Positions 4,080 through 47,173 of a stretch of DNA of 64,000 nt are shown piece by piece. Numbering within the stretch: the stretch's first letter is position 1; each line of letters opens with the position of its first letter. The stretch is from NCBI RefSeq assembly GCF_040436345.1, contig NC_133221.1, positions 33,080,589 to 33,144,588 of the forward strand, in the 5' to 3' direction. Source of the stretch: Pagrus major (taxonomy: Eukaryota; Chordata; Actinopteri; Spariformes; Sparidae). Position numbers and translations under genes: made by a program. The notes under the pieces were generated by a model that did not search any database, was not told the origin of the DNA, and was given only the letters and a program-made list of their open reading frames with translations.

Positions 4080-4217
4080 CCTTGTGGACTTCCGGTTATG
4101 GCGCGCCGCTGACAGGTCGCATTAAACTTGGCTCCTCGCTAACTTTCTGAAAACTCCTGAAAAAAAACGACCGAAAGTGTATTGATTTGAACAGTTGAAG
4201 AGGTTTTATGGGAATTA

Positions 4218-5082
4218 ATGCCATCTAGAAAATCTAAACGTAGACAACATTCACTGACCACACATGCTAAAGGAGCAGCAGGTGATGCTAGCACTGTTAC
4301 AAATGCTAGTGAAGACAAAGCCGGAGCTGGTGTGCCTATAAACAGCGACATCCTGGGGGCCATTTGTGCACTTATCAACACACAATCTGCCAACATGATG
4401 GAAGCAATAAATGATATTAAGAACGACATATTGTCACACTCCAAACGAATGGGAGAGGCTGAGGAAAGAATAATGCAAACTGAGGAGGATGTGACAGCCC
4501 TGAAACAGAAAGTTGGACAGCTGGAAGATACAGTGGAAATGCTAAAGAACAAAATCAAAGACCAAGAAGACTGAGCAAGACCCTCTAATCTGAGATTGGT
4601 TGGTCTTCCTGAAAAAAACTGAAGGTCTAAATATGTGCAGCTATCTGGAAAATTGGCTACCTAAAGTGCTGGGGGACTCCCTCATTCCTAACCTGGTCAT
4701 CGAAAGGGCGCACAGGGTAAGTCAGGTGAATCCACACTGGCCCTCGTCACCCCGCCCTCGATTGTCATGAAGCTTCTCAATTATCAAGACCGGTAGAAGA
4801 TACTGAGAGCAGCCAGAAACCTGAAAGAAGTGCGGTACAAAAAATCATTGAGTCGGCTTCTATCCTGATTTATCAGCAGAGACCCCCCAGCGCCAGCGTC
4901 TATTTGATGGAGTAAAGGCCCAGTTCCGAGACTTGAACGTCTGCTATGGGATGCTGTACCTGGCACACCTGGTGATCACGCATGATGGACAGCACACAGT
5001 CTTCAGATCCGTCTCAGAGGCAGAGAAATATCTCCACGGTATCCAGTCTGCTTCGCAAGAGTCACCGAGACCCAGCCCCTGA
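4218..5082 (+). pseudogene. L1 ORF1 protein (RNA-binding chaperone), broken
   Basis: L1 ORF1 proteins coat L1 RNA in the cytoplasm. The first 118 codons are open and basic at the N-terminus, then form a heptad-patterned coiled coil ending near the Asp/Glu-rich KIKDQED. The following R-x-x-N-L-R-L-x-G-L-P-E pattern is the hallmark start of the L1 ORF1 RNA-recognition domain (Transposase_22 family). The frame then breaks repeatedly: a stop after KIKDQED, a shift at the A-run after L-P-E-K, and further shifts near 4730 and 4790. C-terminal features such as R-x-A-R-N-L-K and F-F/Y-D-L-S-A-x-x-x-x-x-R can still be followed to a stop at 5080-5082. The start at 4218 fits the short 5' UTR after the target duplication. 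Certainly non-functional. Confidence 0.85.
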
Positions 5083-6152
5083 AGTTGTCTACAGTCAGTG
5101 CCGCCAGTGTGATTAGAAAAAAAAGATCCTGTAAGTCATTATAATGAGATAGTATCTCAAAATATTGACTTAGTATCTCACAATAATGAAATAGTATCTC
5201 AAAATATTGACTTAGTATCTCAAAATAATGAGATAGTATCTCAAAATATTGACTTAGTATCTCAAAATAATGAGATAGTATCTCAAGATAATGAGATAGT
5301 ATATCAAAATATTGACTTAGTATCTCAAAAATAATGGTAGTATCTCACAATACTTACTTAGTATCTCAAAATATTGACTTAGTATCTCAAAATAATGAGA
5401 TAGTATCTCAAAATATTGACTTAGTATTTCAAAATAATGAGATAGTATCTCAAAATATTGACTGACTATCTTAAAATAATGACTTAGTATCTCAAAATAT
5501 TGACTTAGTATTTCAAAATAATGAGATAGTATCTATTGACTTAGTATCTCACAATAAGGAAAATAGTATCTCAAAATATTGACTTAGTATCTCACAATAA
5601 TGAGATAGTATCTCAAAATATTGACTTAGTATCTCAAAATAATGAGATAGTATCTTTTGACTTAGTATCTCAAAATAATGAGATAGTATCTCAAAATATT
5701 GACTTATTATCTAAAAAATAATGATAGTATCTCAAAATAATGAGATAGTATGTATTGACTGAGTATCTCAAAATAATGAGATAGTATCTCAAAATATTGA
5801 CTTATTATCTCAAAAATAATGATAGTATCTCAAAATAATGAGATAGTATCTCAAAATATTGACTGACTATCTCACAATAATTACTTAGTATCTCAAAATA
5901 ATGAGATAGTATCTCAAAATATTGACTTATTATCTCAAAAATAATGATAGTATCTCAAAAATAATGAGATAGTATCTATTGACGTAGTATCTCAAAATAA
6001 CGAGATAGTATCTCAAAATAATGAGATAGTATCTATTGACTTAGTATCTCAAAATAATGAGATAGTATCTCAAAATATTGACTTATTATCTCAAAAATAA
6101 TGATAGTATCTCAAAATAATGAGATAGTATCTCAAAATATTGACTGACTATC

Positions 6153-7139
6153 TTAACCCTCTAGGCGCCAGAGTTTATTTAGGAAAATATTCCGTTTGGA
6201 TTGTAAGTTTTCAAAAGGCTGTAGCTTGGAAGTGGTGAGAGATAAATCCATAGTGTAAATGAGAACAATATTCATAATGACCTAAAGTTTGTGATGGGAG
6301 TAAACTGAATCATCTAATTTGCATATTGTGACGTCACCAGGTGACTGACAGTAACTTTCAGTAAAACTGATTTTTGAACATATTTACACAGAAAAAAATA
6401 TCTATATTGTCATCTCATCCTCAAAATAAAGGAACAGGAGTTTGATTGGATTAAATTTACTAATATAATTTGTATGTCACCAGGTAAAATTCAGTAAAAC
6501 GGAATTCTGAACATATTTACACAGTAGATTTTTTTTCATTTCATTTTTTCATAGATTGTTTTCATCCTCTCATCCTCAGAGTAAATGAACAGGAATCTGA
6601 TAGGAGTAAATTTCCTAATCTAACTTGTAAAAAGAAAAGAAAACTCTCTCCGTGATCAGCGTGTGTTGCTGTGTGACAGTGTGCGCAGCTGCAGCATCGT
6701 CAGTCACTCGTCTCTGATGAGTGATCGTCATCAGAGGGCAAATCGTCCCCTTCTGAATCGCGATCAGCAAAGCTCTGTGCAAGGACCTCATCCGCACTGT
6801 AAAGTCTTTTGGGCATTTTGTTTTTTATTACAAAAATCGCCATCTGTCTTTTTGGTCTGTCCAGCAAACTTCCGCCACCGCTCCGCGGCTCTCTCCTCTC
6901 CCACTCTGCCGTGTAGCCGCTGCCGCTCCGACAGCGAGTGTCGGGTTTCAAACTTCTTTTTCTCAGGTATTTTGCATAGAAACACACCCCCAAATGACGT
7001 CAGGATTGAAGCTGAATCTATTGGCTATCTAGTGGTAGCAAGCAGTAACAGCACAAGGCAGTAGATTTAAAGATATGGGCTGTTTTAATGAGCAATGTTG
7101 CCTGTCGCAATAATGCGACTTTGGCGCCTAGAGGGTTAA
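6153..7139 (-). mobile_element. piggyBac deletion derivative flanked by TTAA
   Basis: Inverted ends CCCTCTAGGCGCCA (6157-6170) and TGGCGCCTAGAGGG (7122-7135) are bordered on each side by TTAA (6153-6156, 7136-7139). TTAA targets and CCC... termini are the piggyBac signature. The 979-bp element keeps only the start of a transposase on the minus strand, so it would have been moved in trans. The satellite array continues on both sides exactly as expected for a clean insertion. Confidence 0.92.
6700..6816 (-). pseudogene. N-terminal piece of piggyBac transposase
   Basis: From the ATG at 6816 the minus strand encodes a Met-Pro-Lys-Arg start, then Y-S-A-D-E-V and an acidic stretch rich in Asp, Ser and Glu. 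This matches the N-terminal acidic segment of PGBD/piggyBac transposases. A stop follows after 38 codons and the catalytic DDD domain is missing, consistent with internal deletion. An open frame continues upstream of this Met to 6993, so the true start is uncertain. Confidence 0.7.
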
Positions 7140-8527
7140 AATAATGACTTAGTATCTCAAAATATTGACTTAGTATCTCAAAATAATGAGATAGTATCTC
7201 AAATAATGAGATAGTATACCAAAATATTGACTTAGTATATCAAAAATAATGATAGTTTCTCACAATACTTAGTATCTCAAAATAATGAGATAGTATCTCA
7301 AAATATTGACTTAGTATCTCAAAAATAATGAGATAGTATCTCAAAATATTGACTTAGTATTTCAAAATAATGAGATAGTATCTCAAAATATTGACTTATT
7401 ATCTCAAAAATAATGATATCTCACAATAATTACTTAGTATCTCAAAATAATGAGATAGTATCTCAAAATATTGACTCAAAATAATTAGATAGTATCTATT
7501 GACTTAGTATCTCAAAATAATGAGATAGTATTTCAAAATATTGACTGACTATCTCAAAATAATGAGGTAGTATCTCAAAATAATGAGAAAGTATCTCAAA
7601 ATATTGACTTAGTATCTCAAAATAATGAGATAGTATCTCAAAATATTGACTATCTCAAAATAATGACTTAGTATCTCAAAATATTGACTTAGCATCTCAA
7701 AATAATGAGATAGTATCTCAAAATATTGACTTAGTATCTCAAAATAATGAGATAGTATCTCAAAATATTGACTCAAAATATTGAGATAGTATCTATTGAC
7801 TTAGTATCTCAAAATAATGATAGTATCTCAAAATATTGACTTAGTATCTCACAATAATGAAATAGTATCTCAAAATAATGAGATAGTATCTCAAAATAAT
7901 GAGATAGTATCTCAAAATATTGACTTATTATCTTAAAATAATGACTTAGTATCTCAAAATATTGACTTAGTATTTCAAAATAATGAGATAGTATCTCAAA
8001 ATATTGACTGACTATCTTAAAATAATGACTTAGTATCTCAAAATATTGACTTAGTATTTCAAAATAATGAGATAGTATCTCAAAATATTGACTTATTATC
8101 TCAAAAATAATGATATCTCACAATAATTACTTAGTATCTCAAAATAATGAGATAGTATCTCAAAATATTGACTCAAAATAATTAGATAGTATCTATTGAC
8201 TTAGTATCTCAAAATAATGAGATAGTATTTCAAAATATTGACTGACTATCTCAAAATAATGAGGTAGTATCTCAAAATAATGAGAAAGTATCTCAAAATA
8301 TTGACTTAGTATCTCAAAATATTGACTTAGTATCTCAAAATAATGAGATAGTATCTCAAAATATTGACTATCTCAAAATAATGACTTAGTATCTCAAAAT
8401 ATTGACTTAGCATCTCAAAATAATTAGATAGTATCTATTGACTTAGTATCTCAAAATAATGAGATAGTATTTCAAAATATTGACTGACTATCTCAAAATA
8501 ATGAGGTAGTATCTCAAAATAATGAGA

Positions 8528-11155
8528 AAGTATCTCAAAATATTGACTTAGTATCTCAAAATAATGAGATAGTATCTCAAAATATTGACTCAAAATATTG
8601 AGATAGTATCTATTGACTTAGTATCTCAAAATAATGATAGTATCTCAAAATATTGACTTAGTATCTCACAATAATGAAATAGTATCTCAAAATAATGAGA
8701 TAGTATCTCAAAATAATGAGATAGTATCTCAAAATATTGACTTATTATCTTAAAATAATGACTTAGTATCTCAAAATATTGACTTAGTATTTCAAAATAA
8801 TGAGATAGTATCTCAAAATATTGACTGACTATCTTAAAATAATGACTTAGTATCTCAAAATATTGACTTAGTATTTCAAAATAATGAGATAGTATCTCAA
8901 AATATTGACTTATTATCTCAAAAATAATGATATCTCACAATAATTACTTAGTATCTCAAAATAATGAGATAGTATCTCAAAATATTGACTCAAAATAATT
9001 AGATAGTATCTATTGACTTAGTATCTCAAAATAATGAGATAGTATTTCAAAATATTGACTGACTATCTCAAAATAATGAGGTAGTATCTCAAAATAATGA
9101 GAAAGTATCTCAAAATATTGACTTAGTATCTCAAAATAATGAGATAGTATCTCAAAATATTGACTATCTCAAAATAATGACTTAGTATCTCAAAATAATG
9201 ACTTAGTATCTCAAAATATTGACTTAGCATCTCAAAATAATGAGATAGTATCTCAAAATATTGACTTAGTATCTCAAAATAATGAGATAGTATCTCAAAA
9301 TATTGACTTAGTATTTCAAAATAATGACTTAGTATCTCAAAATATTGACTTAGTATTTCAAAATAATGAGATAGTATCTCAAAATATTGACTTATTATCT
9401 CAAAAATAATGATATCTCACAATAATTACTTAGTATCTCAAAATAATGAGATAGTATCTCAAAATATTGACTCAAAATAATTAGATAGTATCTATTGACT
9501 TAGTATCTCAAAATAATGAGATAGTATTTCAAAATATTGACTGACTATCTCAAAATAATGAGGTAGTATCTCAAAATAATGAGAAAGTATCTCAAAATAA
9601 TGAGAAAGTATCTCAAAATATTGACTTAGTATCTCAAAATAATGAGATAGTATCTCAAAATATTGACTATCTCAAAATAATGACTTAGTATCTCAAAATA
9701 TTGACTTAGCATCTCAAAATAATGAGATAGTATCTCAAAATATTGACTTAGTATCTCAAAATAATGAGATAGTATCTCAAAATATTGACTTAGTATTTCA
9801 AAATAATGAGATAGTATCTCAAAATATTGACTCAGTATTTCAAAAATATTGAGATAGTATCTCAAAATATTGACTTATTATCTCAAAAATAATGATATCT
9901 CACAATAATTACTTAGTATCTCAAAATAATGAGATAGTATCTCAAAATATTGACTCAAAATAATTAGATAGTATCTATTGACTTAGTATCTCAAAATAAT
10001 GAGATAGTATTTCAAAATATTGACTGACTATCTCAAAATAATGAGGTAGTATCTCAAAATAATGAGAAAGTATCTCAAAATATTGACTTAGTATCTCAAA
10101 ATAATGAGATAGTATCTCAAAATATTGACTATCTCAAAATAATGACTTAGTATCTCAAAATATTGACTTAGCATCTCAAAATAATGAGATAGTATCTCAA
10201 AATATTGACTATCTCAAAATAATGACTTAGTATCTCAAAATATTGACTTAGCATCTCAAAATAATGAGATAGTATCTCGAAATATTGACTTAGTATCTCA
10301 AAATAATGAGATAGTATCTATTGACTTAGTATCTCAAAATCATGAGAAATATTGACTTATTATCTCAAAAATAATGATAGTATCTCACAATAATTACTTA
10401 ATATCTCAAAATAATGAGATAGTATCTCAAAATATTGACTTAGTATCTCAAAATAATGAGATAGTATCTCAAAATACTGACTCATTATCTCAAAAATAAT
10501 TATAGTATCTCACAATAATTACTTAGTATCTCAAAATAATGAGATAGTATCTCAAAATATTGACTTAGTATCTCAAAATAATGAGAAATATTGACTTATT
10601 ATCTCAAAAATAATTATAGTATCTCAAAATAATGAGATAGTATCTCAAAATACTGACTCATTATCTCAAAAATAATTATAGTATCTCACAATAATTACTT
10701 AGTATCTCAAAATAATGAGATAGTATCTCAAAATATTGACTCAAAATAATGAGATAGTATCTATTGACTTAGTATCTCAAAATAATGAGATAGTATCTCA
10801 AAATATTGACTTAGTATCTCACAATAATGAAATAGTATCTCAAAATATTGACTTAGTATCTCAAAATAATGAGATAGTATCTCAAAATATTGACTTATTA
10901 TCTTAAAATAATGACTTAGTATCTCAAAATATTGACTTAGTATTTCAAAATAATGAGATAGTATCTCAAAATATTGACTGACTATCTTAAAATAATGACT
11001 TAGTATCTCAAAATATTGACTTAGTATTTCAAAATAATGAGATAGTATCTATTGACTTAGTATCTCAAAATAATGAGATAGTATCTCAAAATATTGACTT
11101 AGTATCTCACAATAATGAAATAGTATCTCAAAATATTGACTTAGTATCTCAAAAT
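8528..11155 (+). repeat. Higher-order repeat copy 1 of the satellite array
   Basis: This ~2.63-kb block recurs at 11306-13933 with a constant offset of 2,778 bp. Rare markers such as TCTCAAAATCATGAG (10329 and 13107) and a distinctive minus-strand open segment (9626-9865 and 12404-12643) match exactly. The copies diverge at about 8527/11305 on the left and 11156/13934 on the right. Confidence 0.85.
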
Positions 11156-11305
11156 ATTGACTTAGCATCTCAAAATAATGAGATAGTATCTCGAAATATT
11201 GACTTAGTATCTCAAAATAATGAGATAGTATCTCAAAATATTGACTATCTCAAAATAATGACTTAGTATCTCAAAATATTGACTTAGCATCTCAAAATAA
11301 TGAGA

Positions 11306-13933
11306 TAGTATCTCAAAATATTGACTTAGTATCTCAAAATAATGAGATAGTATCTCAAAATATTGACTCAAAATATTGAGATAGTATCTATTGACTTAGT
11401 ATCTCAAAATAATGATAGTATCTCAAAATATTGACTTAGTATCTCACAATAATGAAATAGTATCTCAAAATAATGAGATAGTATCTCAAAATAATGAGAT
11501 AGTATCTCAAAATATTGACTTATTATCTTAAAATAATGACTTAGTATCTCAAAATATTGACTTAGTATTTCAAAATAATGAGATAGTATCTCAAAATATT
11601 GACTGACTATCTTAAAATAATGACTTAGTATCTCAAAATATTGACTTAGTATTTCAAAATAATGAGATAGTATCTCAAAATATTGACTTATTATCTCAAA
11701 AATAATGATATCTCACAATAATTACTTAGTATCTCAAAATAATGAGATAGTATCTCAAAATATTGACTCAAAATAATTAGATAGTATCTATTGACTTAGT
11801 ATCTCAAAATAATGAGATAGTATTTCAAAATATTGACTGACTATCTCAAAATAATGAGGTAGTATCTCAAAATAATGAGAAAGTATCTCAAAATATTGAC
11901 TTAGTATCTCAAAATAATGAGATAGTATCTCAAAATATTGACTATCTCAAAATAATGACTTAGTATCTCAAAATAATGACTTAGTATCTCAAAATATTGA
12001 CTTAGCATCTCAAAATAATGAGATAGTATCTCAAAATATTGACTTAGTATCTCAAAATAATGAGATAGTATCTCAAAATATTGACTTAGTATTTCAAAAT
12101 AATGACTTAGTATCTCAAAATATTGACTTAGTATTTCAAAATAATGAGATAGTATCTCAAAATATTGACTTATTATCTCAAAAATAATGATATCTCACAA
12201 TAATTACTTAGTATCTCAAAATAATGAGATAGTATCTCAAAATATTGACTCAAAATAATTAGATAGTATCTATTGACTTAGTATCTCAAAATAATGAGAT
12301 AGTATTTCAAAATATTGACTGACTATCTCAAAATAATGAGGTAGTATCTCAAAATAATGAGAAAGTATCTCAAAATAATGAGAAAGTATCTCAAAATATT
12401 GACTTAGTATCTCAAAATAATGAGATAGTATCTCAAAATATTGACTATCTCAAAATAATGACTTAGTATCTCAAAATATTGACTTAGCATCTCAAAATAA
12501 TGAGATAGTATCTCAAAATATTGACTTAGTATCTCAAAATAATGAGATAGTATCTCAAAATATTGACTTAGTATTTCAAAATAATGAGATAGTATCTCAA
12601 AATATTGACTCAGTATTTCAAAAATATTGAGATAGTATCTCAAAATATTGACTTATTATCTCAAAAATAATGATATCTCACAATAATTACTTAGTATCTC
12701 AAAATAATGAGATAGTATCTCAAAATATTGACTCAAAATAATTAGATAGTATCTATTGACTTAGTATCTCAAAATAATGAGATAGTATTTCAAAATATTG
12801 ACTGACTATCTCAAAATAATGAGGTAGTATCTCAAAATAATGAGAAAGTATCTCAAAATATTGACTTAGTATCTCAAAATAATGAGATAGTATCTCAAAA
12901 TATTGACTATCTCAAAATAATGACTTAGTATCTCAAAATATTGACTTAGCATCTCAAAATAATGAGATAGTATCTCAAAATATTGACTATCTCAAAATAA
13001 TGACTTAGTATCTCAAAATATTGACTTAGCATCTCAAAATAATGAGATAGTATCTCGAAATATTGACTTAGTATCTCAAAATAATGAGATAGTATCTATT
13101 GACTTAGTATCTCAAAATCATGAGAAATATTGACTTATTATCTCAAAAATAATGATAGTATCTCACAATAATTACTTAATATCTCAAAATAATGAGATAG
13201 TATCTCAAAATATTGACTTAGTATCTCAAAATAATGAGATAGTATCTCAAAATACTGACTCATTATCTCAAAAATAATTATAGTATCTCACAATAATTAC
13301 TTAGTATCTCAAAATAATGAGATAGTATCTCAAAATATTGACTTAGTATCTCAAAATAATGAGAAATATTGACTTATTATCTCAAAAATAATTATAGTAT
13401 CTCAAAATAATGAGATAGTATCTCAAAATACTGACTCATTATCTCAAAAATAATTATAGTATCTCACAATAATTACTTAGTATCTCAAAATAATGAGATA
13501 GTATCTCAAAATATTGACTCAAAATAATGAGATAGTATCTATTGACTTAGTATCTCAAAATAATGAGATAGTATCTCAAAATATTGACTTAGTATCTCAC
13601 AATAATGAAATAGTATCTCAAAATATTGACTTAGTATCTCAAAATAATGAGATAGTATCTCAAAATATTGACTTATTATCTTAAAATAATGACTTAGTAT
13701 CTCAAAATATTGACTTAGTATTTCAAAATAATGAGATAGTATCTCAAAATATTGACTGACTATCTTAAAATAATGACTTAGTATCTCAAAATATTGACTT
13801 AGTATTTCAAAATAATGAGATAGTATCTATTGACTTAGTATCTCAAAATAATGAGATAGTATCTCAAAATATTGACTTAGTATCTCACAATAATGAAATA
13901 GTATCTCAAAATATTGACTTAGTATCTCAAAAT
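11306..13933 (+). repeat. Higher-order repeat copy 2 of the satellite array
   Basis: Second copy of the 2.6-kb block beginning near 8528. The near identity of long irregular stretches shows a recent segmental duplication inside the array, not independent monomer drift. Confidence 0.85.
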
Positions 13934-14484
13934 AATGAGATAGCATCTCAAAATATTGACTGACTATCTCAAAATAATGACTTAGTATCTCAAAGTAATG
14001 ACTTAGTATCTCTAAATAATGACATAGTATCTCAGAGTAATGACTGAGTATCTCAAAATAATGAGAAAGTATCTCAAAATATTGACTTAGGCCTATGTCA
14101 TGATTCTTCATATGAGTCAAAGCAACAGAAGAAAGTGGGCGAGACAAGGCTTAGCGGACCTAAATGGATACCATCATTGAAGACTACTTTAGACATGGAT
14201 TCACAAATCGTGAAACTTTAGTGCTCTTGGAGGAATCACATAATATCAAACTAAGCCTTCGGACTCTAGAGAGAAAGCTACAAAAGAACCAGCTTTGGCG
14301 GAGACGAAATAAGACAGATGAAGCTGAGGTGGCATCCTTCATTGACCAACAGCTACAAACGTCTGGCAAACAGCACAGATACAGATGGATGCACCAGAAA
14401 TGTTGGCTGGCCGGGATAGTTACCGACAGAGGAACACTGTGCGTCAATTGATGCGACTGATGGACAGAAATGGGGTGGATCTGC

Positions 14485-14492
14485 GTGCACGC
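14485..14492. repeat. 8-bp target duplication of the hAT (GTGCACGC), left copy
   Basis: GTGCACGC flanks the hAT at 14485-14492 and 19215-19222, the 8-bp length typical of hAT elements. Confidence 0.93.
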
Positions 14493-17400
14493 CAGGCCTG
14501 GAATTTCATCATTTTAGGGGCAAGGCCACTTGGCCTTTCGTGTTGTCAATTATTTGAGGGCACAAAGGCCAAAAGCCAGGGCAGCAAGGCCATAAAATAA
14601 AACAATGATTTTAAGTCCACGTCCATAATGAATTTAATTTAAGGACTAAGAATGTATAAATATCTGTGAAATGAATACATAAAACAAGCTCAGGCGAGAA
14701 CTTTCAACTTTCAACTATTTATTAATTCATAAATGCATTTATTTTTATTTTACATTTATTTTCAACATATACTACAAAGTGACTAGCATTAATGCCTGGT
14801 TGTGTGATTAATCAGTCACTATCTTCTGAAGATGGGGATGGAGAGTCAGGGGGAGTTTCATCGTGTGTTTTAGGGTTCCTTGGACCATATGGATGAATGT
14901 TTGGCCTCTTCTTGTTGATGCCAGCTGCCCACCATCTTGCCACAGATTCTTGGCTTTGGAAATCTGTAGGAGCACAACCCTGTGACTTGTTGAGGAGGAG
15001 GTCTTCAATGGTGGATGTATGCAGGCTTAAACGCCAGTCTCCCTGCATTCTCTTCATGATGGAGAACTGCCGCTCTACCTGAGAGGTAGAGACAGGGAAC
15101 ACTAAGATGATTCTTACCAGGTGTAGCAGGTTAGGGTACATGTTTCCCTTCTCCATCAGAAACCTTGATCATAGTGGGAGGAAGGTTTGGTCCTTATGGT
15201 GGTGCACTATGTCAGCTTTCGCTCTAAACCACTCCCTGTCTATCTCAGCCACATTGCATCCGTTTTTGGTCAGAAGAGGCTCAAAGTGCTTGCACAGGTG
15301 ATGCAATTCTTCCTCACCAAACTCTTCTTCTCTTCTGTTGGGAAATTCACTGGATCAAACATCTCTGCAGCCAGGAGCACAGGATCAGTGGAGAAAGTAG
15401 AAAATCTCTTGCCAATGCATGCAATGATGTTATCCACTGTGTCTTTCCTATGGCGACAGAAGGCTTCTGCATGTTAGAGTTTCTGATATTTACTCCATTA
15501 TATTGAAATCCCTCAGTGGTGGTGGTGAAGGATTCAAGGACTTGGCGGAGATAGGGACCTGGCTTCTGAGTTTGCTTACGTAACGCAGCCTGGGCAGCCA
15601 GGATCCTACTACGCACACACGACAGGGGCAATTGATCTCCTTGGAAATTAAGTGACAGTTCAGCCAGGTCAGATAAAAGATCCTGATACAGTGCCATATT
15701 GAGAACAAACTTTGGCGAGGTTAACTGTCGTAACATTGCCCTGATCTTCTCCTTCTCTGGTGTGGCCTCATCCTGTCTTTCCTGGAGGTGGGCGACAATG
15801 CTCCCATAGTTTGTATTGGCAAGACAGGAAACAGCCCTCCTCCTGTGTTCTATCCACCTTGTCCCCTGGGAGCGAGCTGGTTTCACGACGTGTTCCCCAA
15901 GTTCCTCTCCGATGGCCTTCAGCTCTCTCCATTTTTGGGGGAACGATGATAAAGAGAGTACAGTTTCATCAGGAGGTCATCAATCTTGGTCAAGGAAAAA
16001 CAGAAAATAAGGCATTTGTGAGACATTTTATTACACATTCTATTATGGGAGAACTAGCCTGAGCCCTCTGCAACAGTTGCTTGTGAATAGAATTATCGCT
16101 GAAGGCCCAGGAGAGAAAAATCAGAAGAAAACCACATACTGGCATGAGCCTGTCTGTTGAATATTAAGGAAATTGGCTGTATAACAGACTTGGCAACTCC
16201 TCAAATGAAAATGTCAACACATTTTTTTTTTTGCATTTTAGGTAGGAATATTATATGTTATTAAAAAGTTGCTTATATGGGCTGTTATCATGTATGGTTT
16301 CTGTAGGTTAAATGACATTCCAATAAACTTATCCCAACCAAGAACTTTTTACCACCGAACTTGAGACAGGAATGTACAAGGATTTTCTTGTATTTCTCCC
16401 AACAGGTCATTATGATAGGCAAATAAAGTGAGCTCAGTTAATGTAGAATAAGCATCAGAAAGGCATCACAAATGTCCTATGGTGTGCTAAAGGAAAGTTT
16501 ATGAATTAACAAAAAGTAACAAGGTTGATCCTGTTGGGGGCATGATTATGCACACAGAATTTCAGATTTCAAGATAAATTTCCTTTTGGACATGGCAGTC
16601 CCTGCACACTGCCTGCCAACAGAGCAAAACATGAAATGTGTTGCTAAAAAACTTGCATTGAAAGTCTTATTTGCAGAAACAACAGTAAAGTACCTGTTCA
16701 AAGTAAGTGCCCTTGAAGGCATCCTTCAGGCATAATTCCAGTCTGTGGGCGACACAATGCACTTTGAGCATCCATGGCACAGATTCTTCTAGTTTGGTGA
16801 GGACACCATTTGTCTTTCCAAAGTTGACGGCTGCTCCATCAGCTGCTGTTGCAGTCAAGCAGCCACTCAGATCAGGGTAGTTTTCTGCACACTTTTGCAT
16901 TATGGCCTCAAAAACCCCATCAGCATCACATGTTGTTGGCTCTGCAATACTTTAAAAATATGAAACAAAAAGAAAGAAATTTAGAATTAGTTCTTGAAAC
17001 TTTTTATTAACTGGAAGCTTAATTACAGTCACCCCAACCTATGTTGCATCATGACAGCATTTCTCCCAACTTTCCTGCTCTTTTCCACTAAATGTCACAA
17101 TTTCAATAAAGCAAAAATAACCATGAAATTACATGTGGGAAAAAAAACATATTCAACATACAGACTATTAGTCTACATTGTCCTTACCCAAGTAGTCTGA
17201 TTCTTGGGGAGCCATTTTCAATAAGCTTTATGCTTATGACTTCTTTATCTGATGTTCCTTTGTCTGTGCTTCCATCGAACAGTAAGGAGCAGTAGAAAGG
17301 CTCACATTTTGTAAGAGCTTGAAGTTGGTCCCAGCAATATCCTGGATAAATATGCGGCAGGACTTTGAGTTGTGGTAGGTGACCCCTAGCTCCACCCCAT

Positions 17401-19214
17401 GCTTGCGCTCCACAGAGACTAAAGTCTTGTACAGACTAAAAGGCTGCTCAGTGTATGCCACAGTGTATGCAATATCAAATAATTTGCACATCTTTGTTTC
17501 AGTTTTGTCATTAAGTTTCTGGAGCTGTGTAACTGTATTAGAATTAGCCAGAGCCTGGTTTGCTTGCTGGCATGCTGTGATGTGAGCTTTTGAGTCGATA
17601 TGTGTTTTGGCAGTGCATTTTTTAGTATTTGTGCTGCCAGTTATGAATGTATCCGCATTATGTATGTATATGTGTTGTGCAGTGCGCTTTTTATAGTGCT
17701 CCCTGCAGATGCAGCACCACACCTTTGTAACATAGCCTTCCTTGTTCTTCTTAAAGTGCAGCCAGTCATAACCCCAGGACTCAACAGTGGTGGCAGTGGT
17801 TTTTCTTTTCCTGGCTCCATCTACCGCTCGCTCATCCCCTTGTCCCGATCCTTCAATGTCTCCTCCCTGTTCTCTCCTTCTCTCTCCCTTGTTTTTGTAT
17901 CCTGTCTCGTCTGCTCCTGCCTTTTCTTCTCCTCTCTCATCCCTGTTTCTCGGTCCTTCTCCTCCTGTTTTTTCTCCTTCTCTCTCATTATTTGGTCCGT
18001 CATTGTCTGCTCCTCCCTCATGTTTGTGCACTGGACTTTTTCTCTCTGCTCTTGTCAGTTGTCCTTCATGTTCAACTTTCTGTCGTTTGTTTTCTGGCTC
18101 TCCTGTGTCATCTAACTGGTCTACCTTGCTCTGACTGAAAATTATTGACACATAATCAACTGGGGAAAATATTTACATGTATGTATTTCAATTGCATATG
18201 AAATTTCAATTGAGTTGGATTACATTGTTTTAACAAAAACTAATAAACTTAATGTGATACATATTTGAAAAAGGGTTAATGAAAAAAAATGAAAAAAGTA
18301 ATCATGTGATGTATTTAATAGCATTTAAACCCAATGTTAACGCTAACAATAATTTTTGTTTTGTTAGATAGCTAACAAACAAACAAACTACAATAAAGGT
18401 ATATAGTTGCCTCTTTAAACATAATTTACCACTCACCTCTTTAAAAAAACCTCCATGGTTTTGCAGTTTTTAGCTGCATCTGCAAAGCTTTTTTTAAGGC
18501 CCCTCTCCCTCCATTGTTTGCTTGGCATGATGATTCCTGGGAGTAAATGAATAAAAGTAAATATAATGTTGTAATGAAGCCAGCCACCGCTGTTAGCCTA
18601 CCTGGCTACCACCGGTGCTTGACAGCAAGCGTTTGTTGACAAAAATGTTACAGGCTGAGGCTACGGTGGGCATGTTAAACACTGGGTCAACGTTGTAGCA
18701 ATATACTGTACAAGCAACGCGTATTGCGTAAATTTAACGTTAACTTTAGATTGAACATTTTTTCCGCTAATTTATCACACTGTCTTACCTCAGACCCGGC
18801 GACTTTTTCCTCCTCCTCAGACCCAACGTCTCGGTCACGCGGACGTTGGGGGTGCGTTTGATGAAGTCTCCTGGTTAGCCAGTGATAGATTGCTGTCAAA
18901 CTGTCGTTGTAGCCCGCCCGAGCGGTTCATGCCAGGCTCGAATCGAACCTACCACTGGTGATGTATGCATCGTCTCATTTGATGTTGCCAGAATGTCATA
19001 AAAGACGCATTTTTTTTCCGCAAAAGATGCCGGTGTTCAAGGCCATGTTGACAGGGAAGGCAGAGGAGAAAACTGCAAAATCAACTAGGGCAGTGCGGGC
19101 GGGGCATCAAGGCCACTGTGGCCTTAGGGCAGATATTTTTTTCAGGGGCACAAGGCCAAATTGCGAGGGCACGAGGGCCATGCCCCTCGTGGCCCTCGTG
19201 AAATTCCTGCGCTG
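14493..19214 (-). mobile_element. 4.7-kb hAT transposon inserted in the integrase gene
   Basis: The ends CAGGCCTGGAATTTCA and TGAAATTCCTGCGCTG form hAT-style imperfect inverted repeats starting CAG and are bordered by the perfect 8-bp duplication GTGCACGC. Both subterminal regions are crowded with AAGGCC/GGCCTT motifs (about 14517-14592 and 19104-19195), likely transposase-binding sites. Inside lies a four-exon minus-strand transposase gene with frameshifts. It was autonomous by structure but is now inactive. Confidence 0.93.
14812..18528 (-). pseudogene. hAT transposase, four exons with frameshifts
   Basis: Exon 1 (18528-18437) starts MPSKQWRERG and ends at a GTGAGT donor in phase 2. Exon 2 (18134-17188) follows a TTTTCAG acceptor and encodes a very hydrophilic Lys/Glu/Gly-rich segment, then a zinc-binding region (C-C-I-C-R-E-H-Y with a later K-x-H-x-x-S-K-A-H). 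A one-base shift occurs near 17315, just before L-L-F-D-G-S-T-D-K, the hAT region with the first catalytic Asp. Exon 3 (16941-16694) carries T-A-T-A-A-D-G-A-A-V-N-F-G (second Asp) and the C-V-A-H-R-L-E-L motif. Exon 4 (about 15985-14812) ends with the dimerisation domain, including F-P-V-S-T-S-Q-V-E-R-Q-F-S. It has a shift near 15935, another near 15460, another near 15250 and a stop near 15170. Family resembles KIAA1586/ZNF862-type transposases. Confidence 0.82.
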
Positions 19215-19306
19215 GTGCACGCAACCGTTTGAGACAGCGTATGTATGTCAGTCGTGGGCCAAACTATGTATGGCATATAGATGGGTACAATAAATTAAAG
19301 CCATAT

Positions 19307-20516
19307 GGCATATGTATCAGGCCTACTATTGTATATAAATATGCCCTTAATTGTTTATTGTACATGCCATCTGAAATACAGGCACACAGGGTGGATACAT
19401 TAGTGGCACTGTCTTTGAATTATAGGTTGATGTTTTTGTAGCTTCATATTGCCTTAACAACAAAGGTATAAAAGAGCAGCATGTGTAGATTATAATTTTT
19501 ACATTTTCATTTTGAGCAAGCTCACACGCAGGTGTTGCATCTCTTTGAGTGTCATTCTAGTTATTATTAGTTACTCTTACAGTAACTGTTATTATGCTGA
19601 TAAAGCCATTTTGTAATATAGACTGGCGAGCCAGATGCAATAAAACACAACACACAGAGAAGAAAAAAAGTGTCTTAACTTTTTTCCAAACCTGATTTTG
19701 AAATTCTTACAATGCTGGTTGTTAAGAACAAATATCTAGTCAAGTCGGCGAAGGTGGATGCTGTAACTCGTTACATTTAATGAATTTTTAGTAGTGAGAA
19801 GATGTCCTTATCAGTCAAAGGACTGGTTTCAGTGCTCCTAAAATGAAACAAAATGATTAAAATCAAAGTACATCAGTGATTCCATTCTCATTCTTAATTG
19901 ATAGTCTGATATTTTTGGAATAAATGCACTCATCGTGTCTGTGTGCAGGGTGCTGTCTATGGTGCTGAATAATTTCACTTCGCAGGCTCTTCTGAAGTTG
20001 TATTACCTTACCTGTCCTCTGTCCATGGTGTTGCCGATTCCGTAGATAGTGACGGTGCATGGCAATCATTGGCCAACGCTGTTTATCAGTGGAAGTACGC
20101 CTGGCAAGCTTATACATCATGTAATCCTATTATTCATTAGTTAATTTTTTATCTGGTTATTCGCCATCCTTGGGTTGTCAGTTTTAAATCTATGATAGTG
20201 TTAGTAGTATCCTAGTCCTAAATAGGTCACAATAATGTGATGCGTTTCATTATCTTTGTGCTTGGTGATACAATTGCATACATAGAGGCGCACTTTCGTT
20301 ATCTTGGCCTTGATTACCTTTGGCATGCCCTGTATGATGCACCTGTAAAACTGTGCAACATATACACGGTAAAAGTACTTCACAGTACTACATTTTTCAA
20401 AACGTTGTCAATAAAAGAACATGACGACACAGTCCATGGTAACAGTTGTAATGGTAACAAGTACAACAACAACAATCACATGTTAACATGGCAGTTTCAT
20501 GACAAAAAAAAAAAGA
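19307..20516. other. Interior of the giant element without recognisable gene
   Basis: The sequence lies between the truncated integrase and the truncated HECT-like gene. It is AT-rich; short frames such as minus 20120-19863 show no domain I know. The missing halves of both genes should lie here, so a deletion is likely. Confidence 0.45.
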
Positions 20517-22204
20517 TATACAGTCAGGAATTGTGACAGCTACTTTTGCCCATTGTTCGATTACATAGGCAGGCTCCTGGACAAGCATTTTGTGGGCAAG
20601 CTCTTGGATGATTTCACTGGCATTGCTGGCTGTTGGTATCCTTCTGCAGCTGTGGTTATCTAGGATCTCAATTAATTCTTCTTGGTCGACACTGTTAATA
20701 TCGGATCGCCATGATTCAAACACAGTACGCTCAGATTCAGGCATGTATTTGAGGAAATTCTCCACTAGATCGCTCTTTACATATCCCAGGGCAGCTTGCT
20801 CTAATATGACAGGCGCGATTTTCACAGGAAGATATTTCTCCCTCGCCCATCCAAAAGCAATTATTCGGCAAATGCTTTCCCACTGCTGCTGTCCAAAATC
20901 ATGTCTTAGAAAGGGCACTTTAAAAGCATTTCCTGTTGTGCACTGGTCGTAGAATTAATTACAGAATTCAGAGAGACTCACAACTCCTCCATCATCATAC
21001 CCCACCTCAGGTGTTCCATCTGGCAGAACAAGCTTGATTTTGGTGTCAACCTCTTTAAGTCCATCATCACAGAAATGTGCTGTGAGCTCTCGCAGTACCT
21101 GCCCTCTGTGAACAACCAATATTCTCTTTACTCTCACTGGATGGCATGGTTTGTGGTGAAACAGGCAGTGTATCATCCAAATTATGTTGCTCATTCTCAG
21201 AAAAGGGTCCTATAAAAACAATGTTGCTGCTCTCATAATCATCCTCACTTACACTCTGTGGAATATAGTGAAAAGACAAAATTGTCATCACTTGTAGTGC
21301 TTCCAAGAGACAGCCCTTCAGCGCTGACTGTTTCAAATGTAGCAGATGATGCTGTAGCAACACTGACAGAAGAAGTGGAAGACTGATTCTGAGAGCTGTG
21401 TTGTCTCTCCAAAGTTGGAGCCAAACCTGCGCTGTGACTGTGTGGACTGTCAATTGTTTTCTTCTTTGTGGTCAAATAAAATCTAAGAGTGAGTTTTGTG
21501 TCAGTGTACAATTTCCCATAATTTCTGAGATCTAACTCAAAATCTGTTAAGGGACCAAGATTATTTCTCCCATCTGGAAAGAACAGGCCAGCCTGTATCA
21601 AATCTCTTTTCTGAACATCCTTTCAAATGTTGACTTTTCTTGTTGCCCCTTCTCGTTTAGCTCTCACTTGTTTGAAAGCCTCTTTTTCATCATCATAATG
21701 CATCCATCCCATTTCTGTTTTTCTCAGTCTTCAGAGCATTTTTTTCCCGAGTCGGTTGGGAATGCTCCCCTTGGTTTTTGCTGCTGCCTCCTTCATCACA
21801 AGGTTTTCTTTTGGACAATTTTGTTTTAAGGCGCTCAAAAAGTTTTGATTTGCGAGTGTTGTGGCTGTTTTCCTTTCGCCTACAAAATCCCAACACTGCT
21901 AGGTGATCACCATATGATGGCAAATAAGTCTTTAACTGTTCATCTGTCATCAGCTGTATGGTGCTGGCATCAATCTAAAAATGGAAAATGGACTTGTTTT
22001 AAAAAAAAGCAATCCTGATTTGATAAGTCTGGTCAAAACAATAATGCAAGAAAGTTTATGTTTTGAAGAAAAAATCAGAAGCAATAAAAAGTAATACAAA
22101 AAGTACAGTTCTTTGACTGAAATGATCTGCTTTTGCAGTTAGGTACCGTCACATGTTTCCTCAGGAACATTTCTCTCTCTCAAGAAGTCACGTAGGTCAT
22201 CCAT
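20517..22204 (-). pseudogene. HECT-like protein gene (fish multicopy family), broken, inside the giant element
   Basis: The minus strand begins at 22204 with a short first exon starting M-D-D-L-R-D-F-L and containing V-P-E-E. After an intron, an exon from 21974 opens I-D-A-S and continues into a SAM-like segment (L-x-x-Y-L-P-S-Y-G-D-x-L-A-V-L-G-F-C-R), then a basic Lys-rich linker and G-W-M-H-Y-D-D in a shifted frame. A Ser/Thr-rich linker follows to about 21190, with L-D-D-T-L-P-V. The HECT-like part (about 21145-20517) includes V-x-V-K-R-I-L-V-V-H-R-G, G-Y-D-D-G-G-V-V, P-F-L-R-H-D-F-G-Q, I-A-F-G-W and L-P-V-K-I-A-P. A TAA replaces a Glu near 20955, and the end runs into a T-run. HECT domains transfer ubiquitin through a catalytic Cys; that C-terminal lobe is absent. 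A related copy lies at 51494-57291. Confidence 0.65.
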
Positions 22205-23563
22205 CCTGTTAGTATGCATTACAAGGAAAGATATTGTAGGCTATCATCATACATCCATATACACAACATGAGTCTTGGGCTACAGATGAGCTACAATTTT
22301 GCAAGAGAAGTAGCCATTATAAATTTGCATTTGGACTGTAAAACTAATACTCCAGTCAGTCCTAATATGAAATGCTTTAGGTTTTCCAGTGTAGTATGAG
22401 CTACTGAAGTATATGTACTGTACTGTAAGTATAGTTTGGTCAGGATCACCATTATCTCTCAATTTAAAAAATCTTGTTGTTGTTTATTTGTTGTGGTCCC
22501 ATTAATATTTGTTTGTGTACTGAAGTAGCATATCACATGGTAAAGATACATTTCAAACAAGTAATTGAGGAAAGGTGTAATTTAATACAACAATTTATTT
22601 TTATCCAGAACCACCAGAGTCACATTTGCTGACATGTCTGACTTCTTGAGGCACACTGAGGTTACGTTTGTTCATTATAAAACTGGAGCAGTTATGAAGA
22701 AGTCAGATCAGAAGTGGAGTAGGCTATGGCTTATGGATGTGCTAAACAGGACCTTTGCAAGCTTGAACGAGGCTTTCACAGAGGGACTGGTATAACGTTA
22801 GCTTATCAATGCACATTTTATTTTTTAGCTTGCTCGCCACTTAATGCTAGCAAGTTCACATTTAGGCTGACCTGTGTTTTGAGCTGTCATCATTAATCCA
22901 TTATTCTTATGTTAATGGGGGTTAGCTGTGCAGTTTGTTGTTGGAATCTGTCCACAGTCCGACTCCAATAATAATAATACTGGTCCCATTTAAACATATT
23001 ATGCTGGAACACAGCTGTAAAAAGTTGTAAACAGTAGTTTGTGAATGCAGCGTGTCGTTCGTTTTCAGCAAAAGCTTTATGAGTCAGAATGGCACCCGTA
23101 CTTTCAAACTCCGGTCGCGAGAGGAGGAATCACGGCTAAATAAGAAGAATAAATAAAAAGTGCAGTGCCAGAGTACAGTACGCAGTACAGCTGTTCACTG
23201 TGTTTCTTTCATTCATTGCCGCAAAACGACACCAGGCAGACACACGTCAGACTGCTAAATGCTAAAATAGCATTGTTCCGACATAAATATATAAACAGCT
23301 TCACCAAATCAATTCCTTTATATGTATTTGTATGTCTATCGTAATTAAAGTAGGCTATCTACCTGTTGAAAACTCATACTTATAAAATTAATAAATACAA
23401 ATTAATAAACATAAATTAATACACAATACCTTTAGCTTAAATCTACGTTTAGCTTGGTGGGTAGAGCACAATCTACAAGTAGCTTGCTCTACATCGGTGC
23501 TCCAAAACTATGCTTGCCTACCTCTTTTGGTTAGCAATGACAGCTAGCTAGTATACTGGACTT
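22205..23563. other. Interior of the giant element, nothing recognised
   Basis: Upstream region of the HECT-like gene on the minus strand. I see no domain, tandem repeat or transposon end. A promoter for that gene would be expected here but no strong TATA box stands out. Confidence 0.45.
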
Positions 23564-23774
23564 TGTGATGCTAGGCTTAAGTCAAAATATTGCGATACTA
23601 TCTCATTATTTTGAGATACTAAGTCAATATATTGAGATACTAAGTCAATATATTGAGATACTAAGTCAATAACTTGAGATACTTTTTCATTATTTTGAGA
23701 TACTAAGTCAATATTTTGAGATACTAAGTCATTATAATGACTTACAGGATCTTTTTTTTTCATCACACTGGCGG
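23564..23774 (-). repeat. Right TIR of the giant element, short satellite
   Basis: About 0.2 kb of the same 21-bp monomers in inverted orientation relative to the left array, closed by ATAATGACTTACAGGATC, a T-run and ATCACACTGGCGG. The inner edge reads TAGGCTTAAGTC, matching the inner edge of the left array. Confidence 0.8.
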
Positions 23775-24451
23775 AAATGGGCTTTTGGGGGGGATTTTGT
23801 TTTCTCTTAGTAATCCTCATCTCAAATACTAAAAGGTATGTTGAACTATATACAGGTGATTAATAACAATGCTTAATTGGAGGCGGTGCGAGCACTTTTC
23901 TCTTGCTCTCTCTGTCTCCCTTTTATCTTCGCACACTGCACCTGTGGATCTGTGTTAAATTACCAAATGGACAATTTTATGTGAAAATTTGGTTTTCTAC
24001 ACATTCAATACTTGAAGGCACTATCAATATAAGGGACAAGCATTAAGATTTAAATAGGAGTGAACTCATTGCTTTTTTATTTAGTGTATTTTATTTTTTT
24101 ATTTTTTCTCAAATTTCGGTGAGTTGAGCTCACAGTCTTTTTGTTATCTTTTAGCAAGCCTATAAAGAATGTGTAGGTGTTCAGAGTACGTTGCTCTTCT
24201 TAACATGGATCAAGCGTTCTACATAGCAGGAGTCTATTATTTTCTGGGTTTTTACTTGTGCTCCGTTTGGGGGAGTGCATGAGGGAGTTCTTAGGGGAGT
24301 TGGGATCTCAGCATGTTGTTTTTTGTTTTGGGTTACTGGGTTATTTCTTTATGGTCAGGGTCATACTATTCTAAAGCAACCAAAAGAGCACATATCACTA
24401 TTATGTTTGAGATTATCCTGAGCACTGAACTTAAAGTTTTATTATTTTAAC
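23775..24451 (+). other. L1 inter-ORF spacer
   Basis: Non-coding sequence between the giant element and the ORF2 start. It has stop codons in all frames and lies where the L1 spacer should be. Assignment is by position only. Confidence 0.5.
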
Positions 24452-24678
24452 ATGCTTAATGGTTCACAGTTAAGAATCTTTAGCTGGAATACAAGAGGAC
24501 TGAAAAATTTGACAAAACTTAAACAGGTGCTAAATCGAATTAAACAAATGAAATCCAATATAATTTTCATACAAGAAACACACCTACCCAAAGAAGACAT
24601 CAAAAATGTAAATAAAAGGTGGCCAGGAAAATTATATTCAGCTTGCTTTACTTCTCATGCCAAAGGTGTCATGATATT

Positions 24679-26239
24679 TAGGGTTCGTACACATTTTTCA
24701 AGGTCAAATTCAAGCACTTTTCAAGCACTTTTAAGGGTCATTTTCAAAATTTTCCAGCAACTTATCGCTGGGGGAAAATACATATCTACAGGAATATATA
24801 TACTCATTATTATCTTTTTTTCACTTTTTATCACAATTATGTACATTGTATTATGCTGTAAACATCTAAAATTATGTTCCATAATAGCAAAAAGTTTAGA
24901 AATTAAAGGGGAACACAAAGTTTTATCCAAAAAAAGAGAAGCCACTTGGCGTTCTTCAGGCACACTCGCGCCGAGACAAAGAGAGACCTGAGAGCACCCT
25001 GTAATTTTCTTTTTTGACATAAATTTTTATGTTTCAAAATGTGTCACCTATCTGTAAGAAGTCTTGGCTTGCCATCTAATCTGGTAGAGTCAATATTAAA
25101 AATAAATAAATAAATCACATCATACAAAAACTTCACTTTCAATAAATTCTTTTTATTCAAAAATATTTTTGAGGTAAGCAATAAACTGCACAAAACCTGA
25201 GCAACAAGTTAAATAGATCCAGAATAGATTGTTTCCCTTGTCGTTGGCAGCTCTTTGAAAAAACCTGAGCAAAACAAGACAAAAAGGTGTAACAAGTGCA
25301 AATCCAAAAATGAATCCAAAAGTTCTGTATACTGTATACAGTGCAAATCAAAAGAACAGTTGACTGAAGTGTCCTTCTGCTAAAAAAAACAGTGGCATAA
25401 TTAAAACATAAAGACAAAAATTCTCCAAAGGAAAAAAGTTGCATTGTACAAAATGCTACCAGGCTGCATGTGTGACAACACACACACAGGCCATAGACTG
25501 CATACACAGACAGTCAGGCGCTAACTTAACTAGTTAACTAACTTAATGGTGCGTTAATTATTCTTTAGTGTGTTATGGTTTCCATATCAATCACATGCGT
25601 TAACGCGTACATTTTTTCTACAGTCTATGGTTAACACGCTAATTTTGACAACCCTATATTTTATATCCTAATTTAGTCTGTAAAACCGCTAATTTAGCTA
25701 ACGTTAGCAGTTAGCATAAACAAAGTGTGAATGTGCAGCGTTGGCCTAAGTTACTCAAAAAGTCTTAACTTACCTTTCATGTGACTGGAGAGCGCAGACT
25801 CTCCCATTGCACAAATCTGCAAATCTTTTTTGCAGACCTTGCATGACGCCACTCTTTGATTCGGTCCTCCTCTTAACCATTGTTTGTAGTTATCATTTTC
25901 AAGCCAATGCTCCAACGTTAAAACGGCAACCTCCCAGCATTTTGTCATCTCCTGCTGTCTCCCTTCGAAGGGGGCGGGGCAGGGTTACACACAGACTGGC
26001 AGGTCGCAGAGATGAGCAGAGAGGCTCAGCACAGCCCAGGCTAAAAAATCTCCACATACGGTTCTCTTACTGATTTTATTTCTCCTTGTAATAAGCAAAC
26101 TATTTTGTTAAAGACACAGAGTTATGATGTCAAGCACTTTCAAGCACTTAAACTAAAATCCAAGCACTTTTCAGACCTTGAAAACACAACATTGAAATTC
26201 ACGCACTTTCAAGGATTTCAAGCACCCGTACGAACCCTG
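24679..26239. mobile_element. 1.56-kb hAT-like element in the L1 endonuclease
   Basis: The inverted ends TAGGGTTCGTAC and GTACGAACCCTG are bordered by the direct repeat GATATT (24673-24678 and 26240-26245). Both subterminal regions repeat AAGCACTTT(C/T)CAAG motifs. An internal minus-strand exon encodes a BED-like finger, which supports a hAT origin. hAT duplications are normally 8 bp; here only 6 match. Excising the insert and one GATATT rejoins the L1 frame at V-M-I-L-I-H. Confidence 0.8.
25774..25948 (-). pseudogene. BED-finger exon of a hAT transposase, isolated
   Basis: The minus strand encodes W-L-x-G-G-P-N-Q-R-V-A-S-C-K-V-C-K-K-D followed by A-M-G-E-S-A-L-S-S-H-M-K. The C-x-x-C pair and the S-A-L-x-x-H-x-K pattern are BED-like zinc-finger features. 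It ends at a GTAAGT donor. No catalytic exons remain, so the element is non-autonomous. Confidence 0.65.
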
Positions 26240-26634
26240 GATATTGATTCATAAATCAGTTCCTTTTCTGTTAAAAAACAAATACATGGACCCATCTGGA
26301 AGATATATTATACTCAATGGCACCATAGTATCTACACAAATCAATGTACTAAATATGCCCCTAATGTTGAAGAACCCTCCTATATCAAGACCTCTTTCTC
26401 TCCCTATCATCATATCCTGGTCAGTGTATAATCGGTGGTGACTTTAATTGTGTGCTGGACCCGATACAAGATTGCTCTACAGGTACTCTTACTTCTCATC
26501 AACAAACCAGAAAAACAATTAAGAAATATATGTGTGAATTAAACTTAATAGATATTTGGAGGCACCTTAACCCTAATAATAAAGAATAATCTTGCCTCTT
26601 GTGTTCACTGTGTTCACTCTCACTGTGGGCAGCG

Positions 26635-26637
<3 letters not shown>

Positions 26638-26671
<34 letters not shown>

Positions 26672-26680
26672 GCGCGCGCC
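26638..26680. repeat. (AC)n(GC)n alternating purine-pyrimidine run
   Basis: An AC run passes directly into CGCGCGCGCG. Such tracts are prone to left-handed Z-DNA. Confidence 0.9.
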
Positions 26681-26747
26681 ACACGGCTCTTCGACCCGTT
26701 TACGTCAGCGTTAAAGACATCCCATAATTATCCATTCCCTTATCTGT

Positions 26748-27404
26748 GGCTGTGTCCAAATTCAGGGGCTGCATCCTTCAAGGACGCGGCCTTTGCGGCC
26801 CACGAAGGCCAGGTCCTTTGGAGAGACCTTGAAGGCCGCGTCCACCGTTGTTAAATGGGACGGTCCAGCCTTCGGAGTATTTCCTGGTTGCGTCACCAGA
26901 TGTTCATGCATTAACGTATGTTTTGGTTCAAATCTATCAAACGTGTACATTTATTTGTGTGTGTACAATGTGTCAAATCTAAATTGAATTATCAACATTA
27001 CGAAATAAACATAAACCCATTGGTGAATAACAACTATATTTATCATAGTATTACCAGCGTCACGTATTTTAACTGAAAGTTACAATTTGGAGGTTTCATA
27101 GTCCCTTGAAGTTTAACATATCTGGCTCACATTTGAATGTCATGTCTGTGCCACTTGATGTCGCCATTTTCTCTTTCTTTCCCTCTTCTGTTTCGGGACT
27201 GAGTGGCGCGCAAAGGATCTTGGGATATGGGAGGCCGCGAAGGATAGTAGCGGTGCGTCCTCCAAAAAGGGGAAATGAAGGCTGCATTTGTGGGCTGCAT
27301 TTGAAGGAGCCTATGAATTTGGACAGCCTTCACGCAGTGTTGTGATGTAATTGACCTTCAAATGCGCCCTTCGAAGGATGCAGCCCCCGAATTTGCACAC
27401 AGCC
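26748..27404. mobile_element. TIR MITE, copy 1
   Basis: Starts GGCTGTGTCCAAATTCAGGG and ends with its near reverse complement CCCGAATTTGCACACAGCC. A possible 3-bp duplication TGT borders it. Internal GAAGG/CCTTC-rich blocks repeat near each end. A related shorter copy is at 51762-52164. No coding capacity recognised; superfamily uncertain. Confidence 0.75.
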
Positions 27405-32190: not shown

Positions 32191-32213
32191 CTGAGGAAAA
32201 AAATAATAGGCAT

Positions 32214-47170: not shown

Positions 47171-47173
47171 TGG

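Follow-up and report, generated by a model that had tools for sequence, protein, structure and literature searches.

An IS3EU-type transposon of Pagrus major with an 8-kb array of 21-bp repeats in one terminal arm that very probably grew in place

Introduction

Arguments on how satellite DNA originates mostly start from genome-wide arrays that are already complete. A stretch of 64,000 nucleotides of the Pagrus major genome (C7:33080589-33144588, hereafter the window) holds, from position 5101 to ~23784, a DNA transposon whose two terminal arms differ greatly in length: the arm on the side of the transposase gene carries 8 kb of mostly 21-bp repeats, while the opposite arm measures 0.2 kb. An initial annotation had described this region as a giant IS3EU-like transposon in which one terminal inverted repeat (TIR) had become a satellite. 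The question raised by this locus is how one end of a single element came to hold such an array, its mirror end remaining short. Our data indicate that this is, very probably, a dead IS3EU-type copy lying in an L1, whose transposase-side 21-bp array grew in place to 8 kb.

One composite transposon in one L1 copy

The outer ends of the element are inverted copies of each other, as positions 5101-5140 match 23774-23736 at 95% over 40 bp, in an alignment that extends into the arrays. This 40-bp match is the actual evidence for paired ends, since the 13-mer CCGCCAGTGTGAT, which each strand of the window carries once, is weak taken alone: with up to two mismatches its mean number in shuffled sequences is 0.63, and 12 of 100 shuffles reach two. 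Specifically, the transposase-side arm (5101..14095, plus strand) starts with the outer TIR remnant CCGCCAGTGTGATTAGAAAAAAAAGATCCTGTAAGTCATTATAATGA, continues with 21-bp repeats of two main types and ends at the inner border GACTTAGGCCTA (14084..14095, plus strand). The short opposite arm (23572..23784, minus strand) consists of the mirrored border GACTTAAGCCTA (23583-23572, minus strand), ~7.5 repeats and the outer TIR AAGCCCATTTCCGCCAGTGTGAT.

Tandem Repeats Finder (TRF) places the 21-bp array at 5141-6153 (49.8 copies), 7138-14090 (330.7 copies) and 23578-23735 (7.5 copies). The left arm, with 330.7 + 49.8 copies, is thus a long tandem array of the kind found in satellite DNA, and the element has the long, internally repetitive TIRs of foldback-type transposons. 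In the left-arm array 373 repeat tokens (anchors) were counted, the two commonest units being present in 81 and 78 exact copies. This array is interrupted by a 979-bp insert (6157..7135) with the TIR CCCTCTAGGCGCCA, lying between two TTAA (6153-6156 and 7136-7139); from these and its end type we take it to be a non-autonomous piggyBac-like element, and no transposase was found for it. Once this insert is discounted, the left arm proper measures 8,013 bp.

The paired ends, the mirrored repeats and the arm asymmetry are therefore as first annotated, and the left end holds; the left arm, proposed at ~9 kb, is shorter, and the right end lies ~10 bp beyond the proposed 23774, at ~23784. The giant element is indeed one unit, much of its size being due to a nested 4.7-kb hAT and to the 1-kb piggyBac-like insert, minus which it measures ~13 kb, 8 kb thereof being array.

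L1 sequence lies on both sides of the element. On the left (4191..5100, plus strand), the alignment to other L1 copies spans 4941-5100, and an open reading frame (ORF) at 4191-4571, with weak coiled-coil matches only, is presumably L1 ORF1. On the right (23785..24988, plus strand), the intergenic region of the same L1 copy is followed by the start of ORF2 (from ~24432), with an Exo_endo_phos match (E 0.001) below the cut-off; a further part of ORF2 is found at 37094-37765 (RVT_1, 6e-24). In addition, two element-free L1 copies elsewhere (C2:33167963 and C2:34621939) join both flanks, reading ...GTTGTCTACA, then ~30-35 bp, then ATTTT..CTTAGTAAT or ATTTTTCTAAGTAAT. In one of these (L085, C2:34621939) the L1 intergenic region is interrupted by another insert, slightly downstream of the site of the element. 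As the initial annotation had it, L1 was seen outside both arms and not between them, either in the scanned frames or in the L1-flank search, these scans not having compared every base with an L1 library.

The aligned empty sites, proposed at the outset as a way to find the target duplication, gave the site and no duplication. The junctions of the window copy are indeed not clean, as no target duplication surrounds it, the left end lacks the first 15 bp of the family (TATGGAAGCCCATTT), the right end lacks the outermost ~5 bp (TATGG), and ~30 bp of L1 seen in the two other copies are missing or replaced. These losses weigh against the reading of the locus put forward here. We conclude that it is a single insertion in a single L1, located in the interval from ORF1 to ORF2 and resected at its junctions.

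As a separate observation, the ORF2 of this L1 is split again at 24988-37094 by ~12 kb with two long minus-strand frames, at 31171-32286 and 32217-34967, the latter with a weak tnp2-like match (E 0.015). An AGAGG pentamer array of 628 bp, detected by TRF at 30328-30955, lies inside this ~12-kb insert.

A transposon subfamily in the same genome

The search for further copies, as first suggested, returned relatives with both arms, a common core and 6-bp duplications, their arm lengths being compared below; counts were taken over 785.9 Mb in 25 contigs. The full family terminus obtained from these relatives is TATGGAAGCCCATTTCCGCCAGTGTGAT. The exact 21-bp terminus has 28 genome places (control 0), and allowing up to three mismatches gives 703 ends, ~100 of them listed (control 1). 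As a stand-alone family marker CCGCCAGTGTGAT was rejected: its 36 genome places (pattern control 4) comprise 13 of the family (10 loci, including the two ends in the window), 16 of one unrelated repeat and 7 other sites. The longer terminus and the subterminal word of the subfamily were used instead, the latter having 33 places with up to two mismatches (control 0), two of which are 42 bp apart in one locus. The window itself holds, at 47099-47225, TATGGAAGCCCATTTC followed by GTAAGTCATAATAATGAG repeats, a sister-subfamily terminus with the same general end, which gave the clue to the true terminus.

Among 20 exact-terminus places sampled from the 21 not yet seen (C22:19212914 was left out), the subterminal sequence of the subfamily is clear only in L072 and L077, so that the wider family was kept out of the arm statistics; in five end pairs of that wider family the 6-bp flanks match at 6, 5, 4, 4 and 2 of 6 positions. 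Within the subfamily, nine of the ten examined copies have two recognisable ends, L049 being without the right one. The 6-bp flanks of these nine match at 6/6 in four copies (TTACTC, TTGATG, CAATCA and TAAATC), at 5/6 in three and at 4/6 in two. In the control, made at offsets of 14 pairs, four or more matches appeared in 7 of 98 comparisons, with one case at five and none at six.

The termini read TATG..CATA in L034, L031, L061, C18:9332464, L048 and L047, and in C2:35933981-35946884 one of the ends is CATGG. Taken by itself, the window copy lacks TA..TA termini, its last 5-15 bp being lost. A composite of the core, mainly from L031, matches the Pfam entry PF24764 rva_4 (Integrase core domain) at 2.8e-22, and a PDB search with the integrase core gave nothing meaningful. 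IS3EU elements end in TA..TA and are usually flanked by target duplications of 6 bp, according to an excerpt of the describing report (PMC10045372). The ends and duplications of the relatives, together with the integrase core, support on sequence grounds the IS3EU-type assignment made initially.

The copies also share their interior, core stretches within 14097-14492 and 19215-19919 being common to them at ~89-97%. This bears on the possibility that two unrelated short array elements face each other by chance around unrelated sequence, which had been named at the outset as what would argue against a single unit. Short core-less members with two ends of their own do exist (L047, 239 bp; L087, 246 bp; L072, 1.1 kb), and the window copy has no target duplication to bind its arms together; they do not occur as a pair at the window locus. 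In contrast, both arms of five relatives (L031, L034, L061, C18:9332464 and C2:35933981) enclose the common core, and one duplication (4-6 matches) bounds each of them, which makes a chance pair extremely improbable.

Some members differ in build. C2:35933981-35946884 (L033+L060), 12.9 kb long, bears genes between short arms, and at the point corresponding to window 20541 it is interrupted by an insert of 7.1 kb. L048 (C16:13250362-13251652), bounded by the perfect CAATCA duplication, carries the transposase-side inner sequence (GTCTTGTTTCCTCATATG) at both arms in inverted orientation, and seems to be a fold-back derivative in which one arm was copied onto the opposite side. L072 (C15:17774159) is nearly all array, and the repeat orientation changes inside it.

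Structure of the long array

The higher-order structure of the array was compared with that of the second long arm of the subfamily, at C4:2640548 (hereafter C4). In the window, the longest exact repeat is a block of 2,628 bp (8529..11156, plus strand), found again without mismatch at 11307-13934, an offset of 2,778 bp; other exact repeats of 723, 610 and 361 bp occur at other offsets. The C4 array has a dominant period of 561 bp and a longest exact repeat of 939 bp, and between the two long arms the longest stretch of exact identity measures 65 bp. Moreover, each array has units of its own. The window array contains TAGTATCTATTGACT (15 bp) 20 times and GACTGACTATCT 18 times, both absent from the seven other arm sequences (six from relatives and the short right arm of the window element itself), and TACTATCTCAAAATATTGACT is present nine times in the C4 arm and in none of five other arms. 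A 53-bp array word has 11 exact places in the genome, ten in the window array and one in a short-armed copy.

The different higher-order duplications and the private units of the two long arrays point to an expansion which, as far as can be judged from sequence, looks local, independent in the two copies and recent. In addition, the cores of the copies differ by ~3-11% while long blocks of the array are identical, so that the most recent duplications appear far younger than the family itself. The distribution of identity along the arm agrees with this: of the segments of 150 bp, 78 of 86 at 7360-13735 recur without mismatch at another place in the array, compared with 1 of 15 at 5101-6151 (79 of 105 overall), and a homogenised centre with a divergent outer edge is the pattern which unequal exchange predicts.

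We propose that a short run of 21-bp repeats is the normal content of the arms in this cut-and-paste family, a copy of which landed between ORF1 and ORF2 of the L1. Afterwards, unequal exchange or replication slippage, acting repeatedly and in jumps of 21 bp to 2.8 kb, would have brought the transposase-side run to 8 kb in place, the opposite arm remaining short. Growth following insertion is the likeliest reading, and unequal exchange the route that we infer.

Several observations weigh against growth in place. The growth could have preceded the insertion. Both long arrays have the same commonest units, and they have some variants in common, TAGTATTTCA occurring 28 times in the window and 6 times in C4, and TAGTATGTCAAAATAATGAGA 19 times in C4 and also in two other copies. 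The cut points of the comparison of centre and edge were chosen after the data had been seen, and the figure of 78 in 86 leans on the exact 2,628-bp duplication, which could itself be partly due to assembly.

If the arm had expanded in a parent element before insertion, it would have moved as part of a long-armed transposon. The C4 copy, in which an arm of 4.6 kb lies within an intact 6-bp duplication (TTACTC), is compatible with this, as a long-armed element there either moved or grew afterwards. However, no fetched copy shares the higher-order structure of the window array, the two long arms match over 65 bp at most, and the 53-bp word has a single place beyond the window, within a copy with short arms; we thus regard an expansion in the parent as unlikely.

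The length of the array could also be in part an artefact of assembly, a mismatch-free duplication of 2,628 bp inside a repeat array being just where assemblers fail. On the other hand, the window contains no N, the arm would still measure ~5.2 kb without one 2.8-kb block, and C4 provides a second long arm with a different structure, so that we hold such an artefact to be rather unlikely. Growth in place is accordingly the reading with which we continue.

Arm lengths across copies

The asymmetry is not limited to the window. The transposase-side and opposite arms measure 8.0 and 0.2 kb in the window element, 4.6 and 0.1 kb in C4, 1.0 and 0.3 kb in C2:31250442, 0.9 and 0.3 kb in C18:2357720, 0.5 and 0.3 kb in C18:9332464, and 0.4 and 0.2 kb in C2:35933981. 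The transposase-side arm is therefore the longer one in all six comparable copies (two-sided sign test, 0.03 if the copies are independent). The comparison excludes L048, both of whose arms carry transposase-side sequence; L047, L072 and L087, which have no core and are unorientable; L049, with one end; L088 and L090, of which one arm was fetched (0.4 and 0.3 kb); and the other, unfetched places of the subterminal word.

These data raise the possibility, which we advance tentatively, that the transposase-side TIR is a hotspot of repeat expansion in this subfamily, with at least two runaways to multi-kb satellite-like arrays and a mirror arm that stays short. The side bias might arise, as a guess, if a longer initial array on the transposase side crossed the threshold for misaligned exchange more often. 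Against a hotspot, the independence of the six copies is doubtful: as they share ancestry, the six do not amount to six independent events. Furthermore, C2:35933981 lacks the transposase-side inner border.

Altogether, this copy presents a satellite-like array forming inside a single transposon with a short arm at its other end, and the small subfamily offers a gradation of arm lengths between 0.1 and 8 kb, in which two copies look like runaways. As the unexpanded mirror arm of each element is its own control, the first stage of array growth becomes measurable within one species. If the hotspot is real, the two arms would be a built-in control for studying minisatellite expansion with respect to replication orientation, transcription of the transposase and starting length.

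Comparison with known elements

The principle is known; what is new is the scale, the restriction to one arm and the recurrence. Array expansion within transposons is a listed route to satellites, according to an excerpt of PMC12628747. In the foldback transposon Tetris of Drosophila virilis, as the excerpted report describes it, tandem repeats within the TIRs expanded inside the element into satellite-like arrays of up to 66 copies of ~220 bp (PMC4079207); the growth of satellites from TIR repeats is hence not a new idea. Tetris is a different transposon with a different repeat; it seems to be nonautonomous, and the element may have been disrupted by its large arrays. The present copy has kept both ends, with expansion in one arm only, and there is a second case. 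Of the initial proposal that a satellite can be born inside one TIR, the expansion of one arm therefore stands, with C4 as a second case; its novelty does not, and nothing found here points to a spread of the array beyond the element.

Galileo subfamily F of Drosophila mojavensis likewise has unequal numbers of TIR tandem repeats within a copy, and its arms evolve independently; in the portion of the report available it reaches three repeats of ~210 bp and arms of 1.26 kb, as opposed to ~370 repeats and 8 kb here (PMC3573991). The IS3EU superfamily (IS3EU/GingerRoot) resembles our element in the TA..TA ends, the 6-bp duplications and the integrase-type core, while the excerpt mentions neither 21-bp arm arrays nor a second gene of the kind found here (PMC10045372); the window copy differs further by the loss of its TA ends. 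Partial texts also report tandem repeats similar to IS3EU in the oyster CgiSat35 and CgiSat47 (PMC8268682) and in half of Tribolium TCAST10 (PMC5844308), the monomers measuring 690 bp, 129 bp and several hundred bp, respectively, which these texts do not place in one arm of an element. Finally, the Xenopus model (Scalvenzi and Pollet, cited in PMC12628747), as summarised there, also derives satellite arrays from a change in repeat copy number within a transposon, the repeats lying within a miniature inverted-repeat transposable element (MITE), unlike the terminal arm of a gene-bearing element described here. In titles and abstract openings of open-licence PMC articles we found no one-arm runaway of this size in an IS3EU element, no recurrence and no constant side.

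Gene content and nested insertions

The 5' part of a degraded, frameshifted transposase frame lies at 14164..14492 (plus strand), in a stretch also found in L031, L034, L061 and L090. It is interrupted by the nested hAT (14493..19214, minus strand), which has degraded minus-strand frames (Dimer_Tnp_hAT, 1.7e-8) and is flanked by the 8-bp duplication GTGCACGC at 14485-14492 and 19215-19222; L031 provides the uninterrupted, empty site. Past the hAT, the transposase resumes at 19215 with GPNYVWHIDGY, its continuation GPNYVWHIDGYNKLKPYGICI occupying 19215..19320 (plus strand). A deletion follows at 19319/19320, where L031 has 849 and L061 845 further bases, which encode the remainder of the integrase core. 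Of the catalytic D, D and E, read by eye in the family core, the window copy retains the first D only; having lost ~850 bp, it is without a complete catalytic core. The window copy is dead: its transposase gene is interrupted by a hAT, a core segment of 0.85 kb is deleted, and its extreme ends are missing.

A degraded second gene (20400..21974, minus strand) is broken in the window and is present also in C2:35933981-35946884, at 87-92% identity by piece. It gave no Pfam match even at E 5 and nothing meaningful in a PDB search; its likeness to HECT / G2E3-type proteins is putative. In scans of viral contigs the element end and the array had no match and the HECT-like frame one, unconfirmed. The 19-bp terminus was met at one place in viral and at 18 in bacterial contigs, all unrelated according to their flanks. 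Elsewhere in the window, at 54780-55169 and ~55980-56100, lies a second relative of this minus-strand gene, on the plus strand (IDASVIPLMGESDLAQYLLSYGDRVAVIAFC; NNLDDTLPVIPQ), the similarity being seen by eye only.

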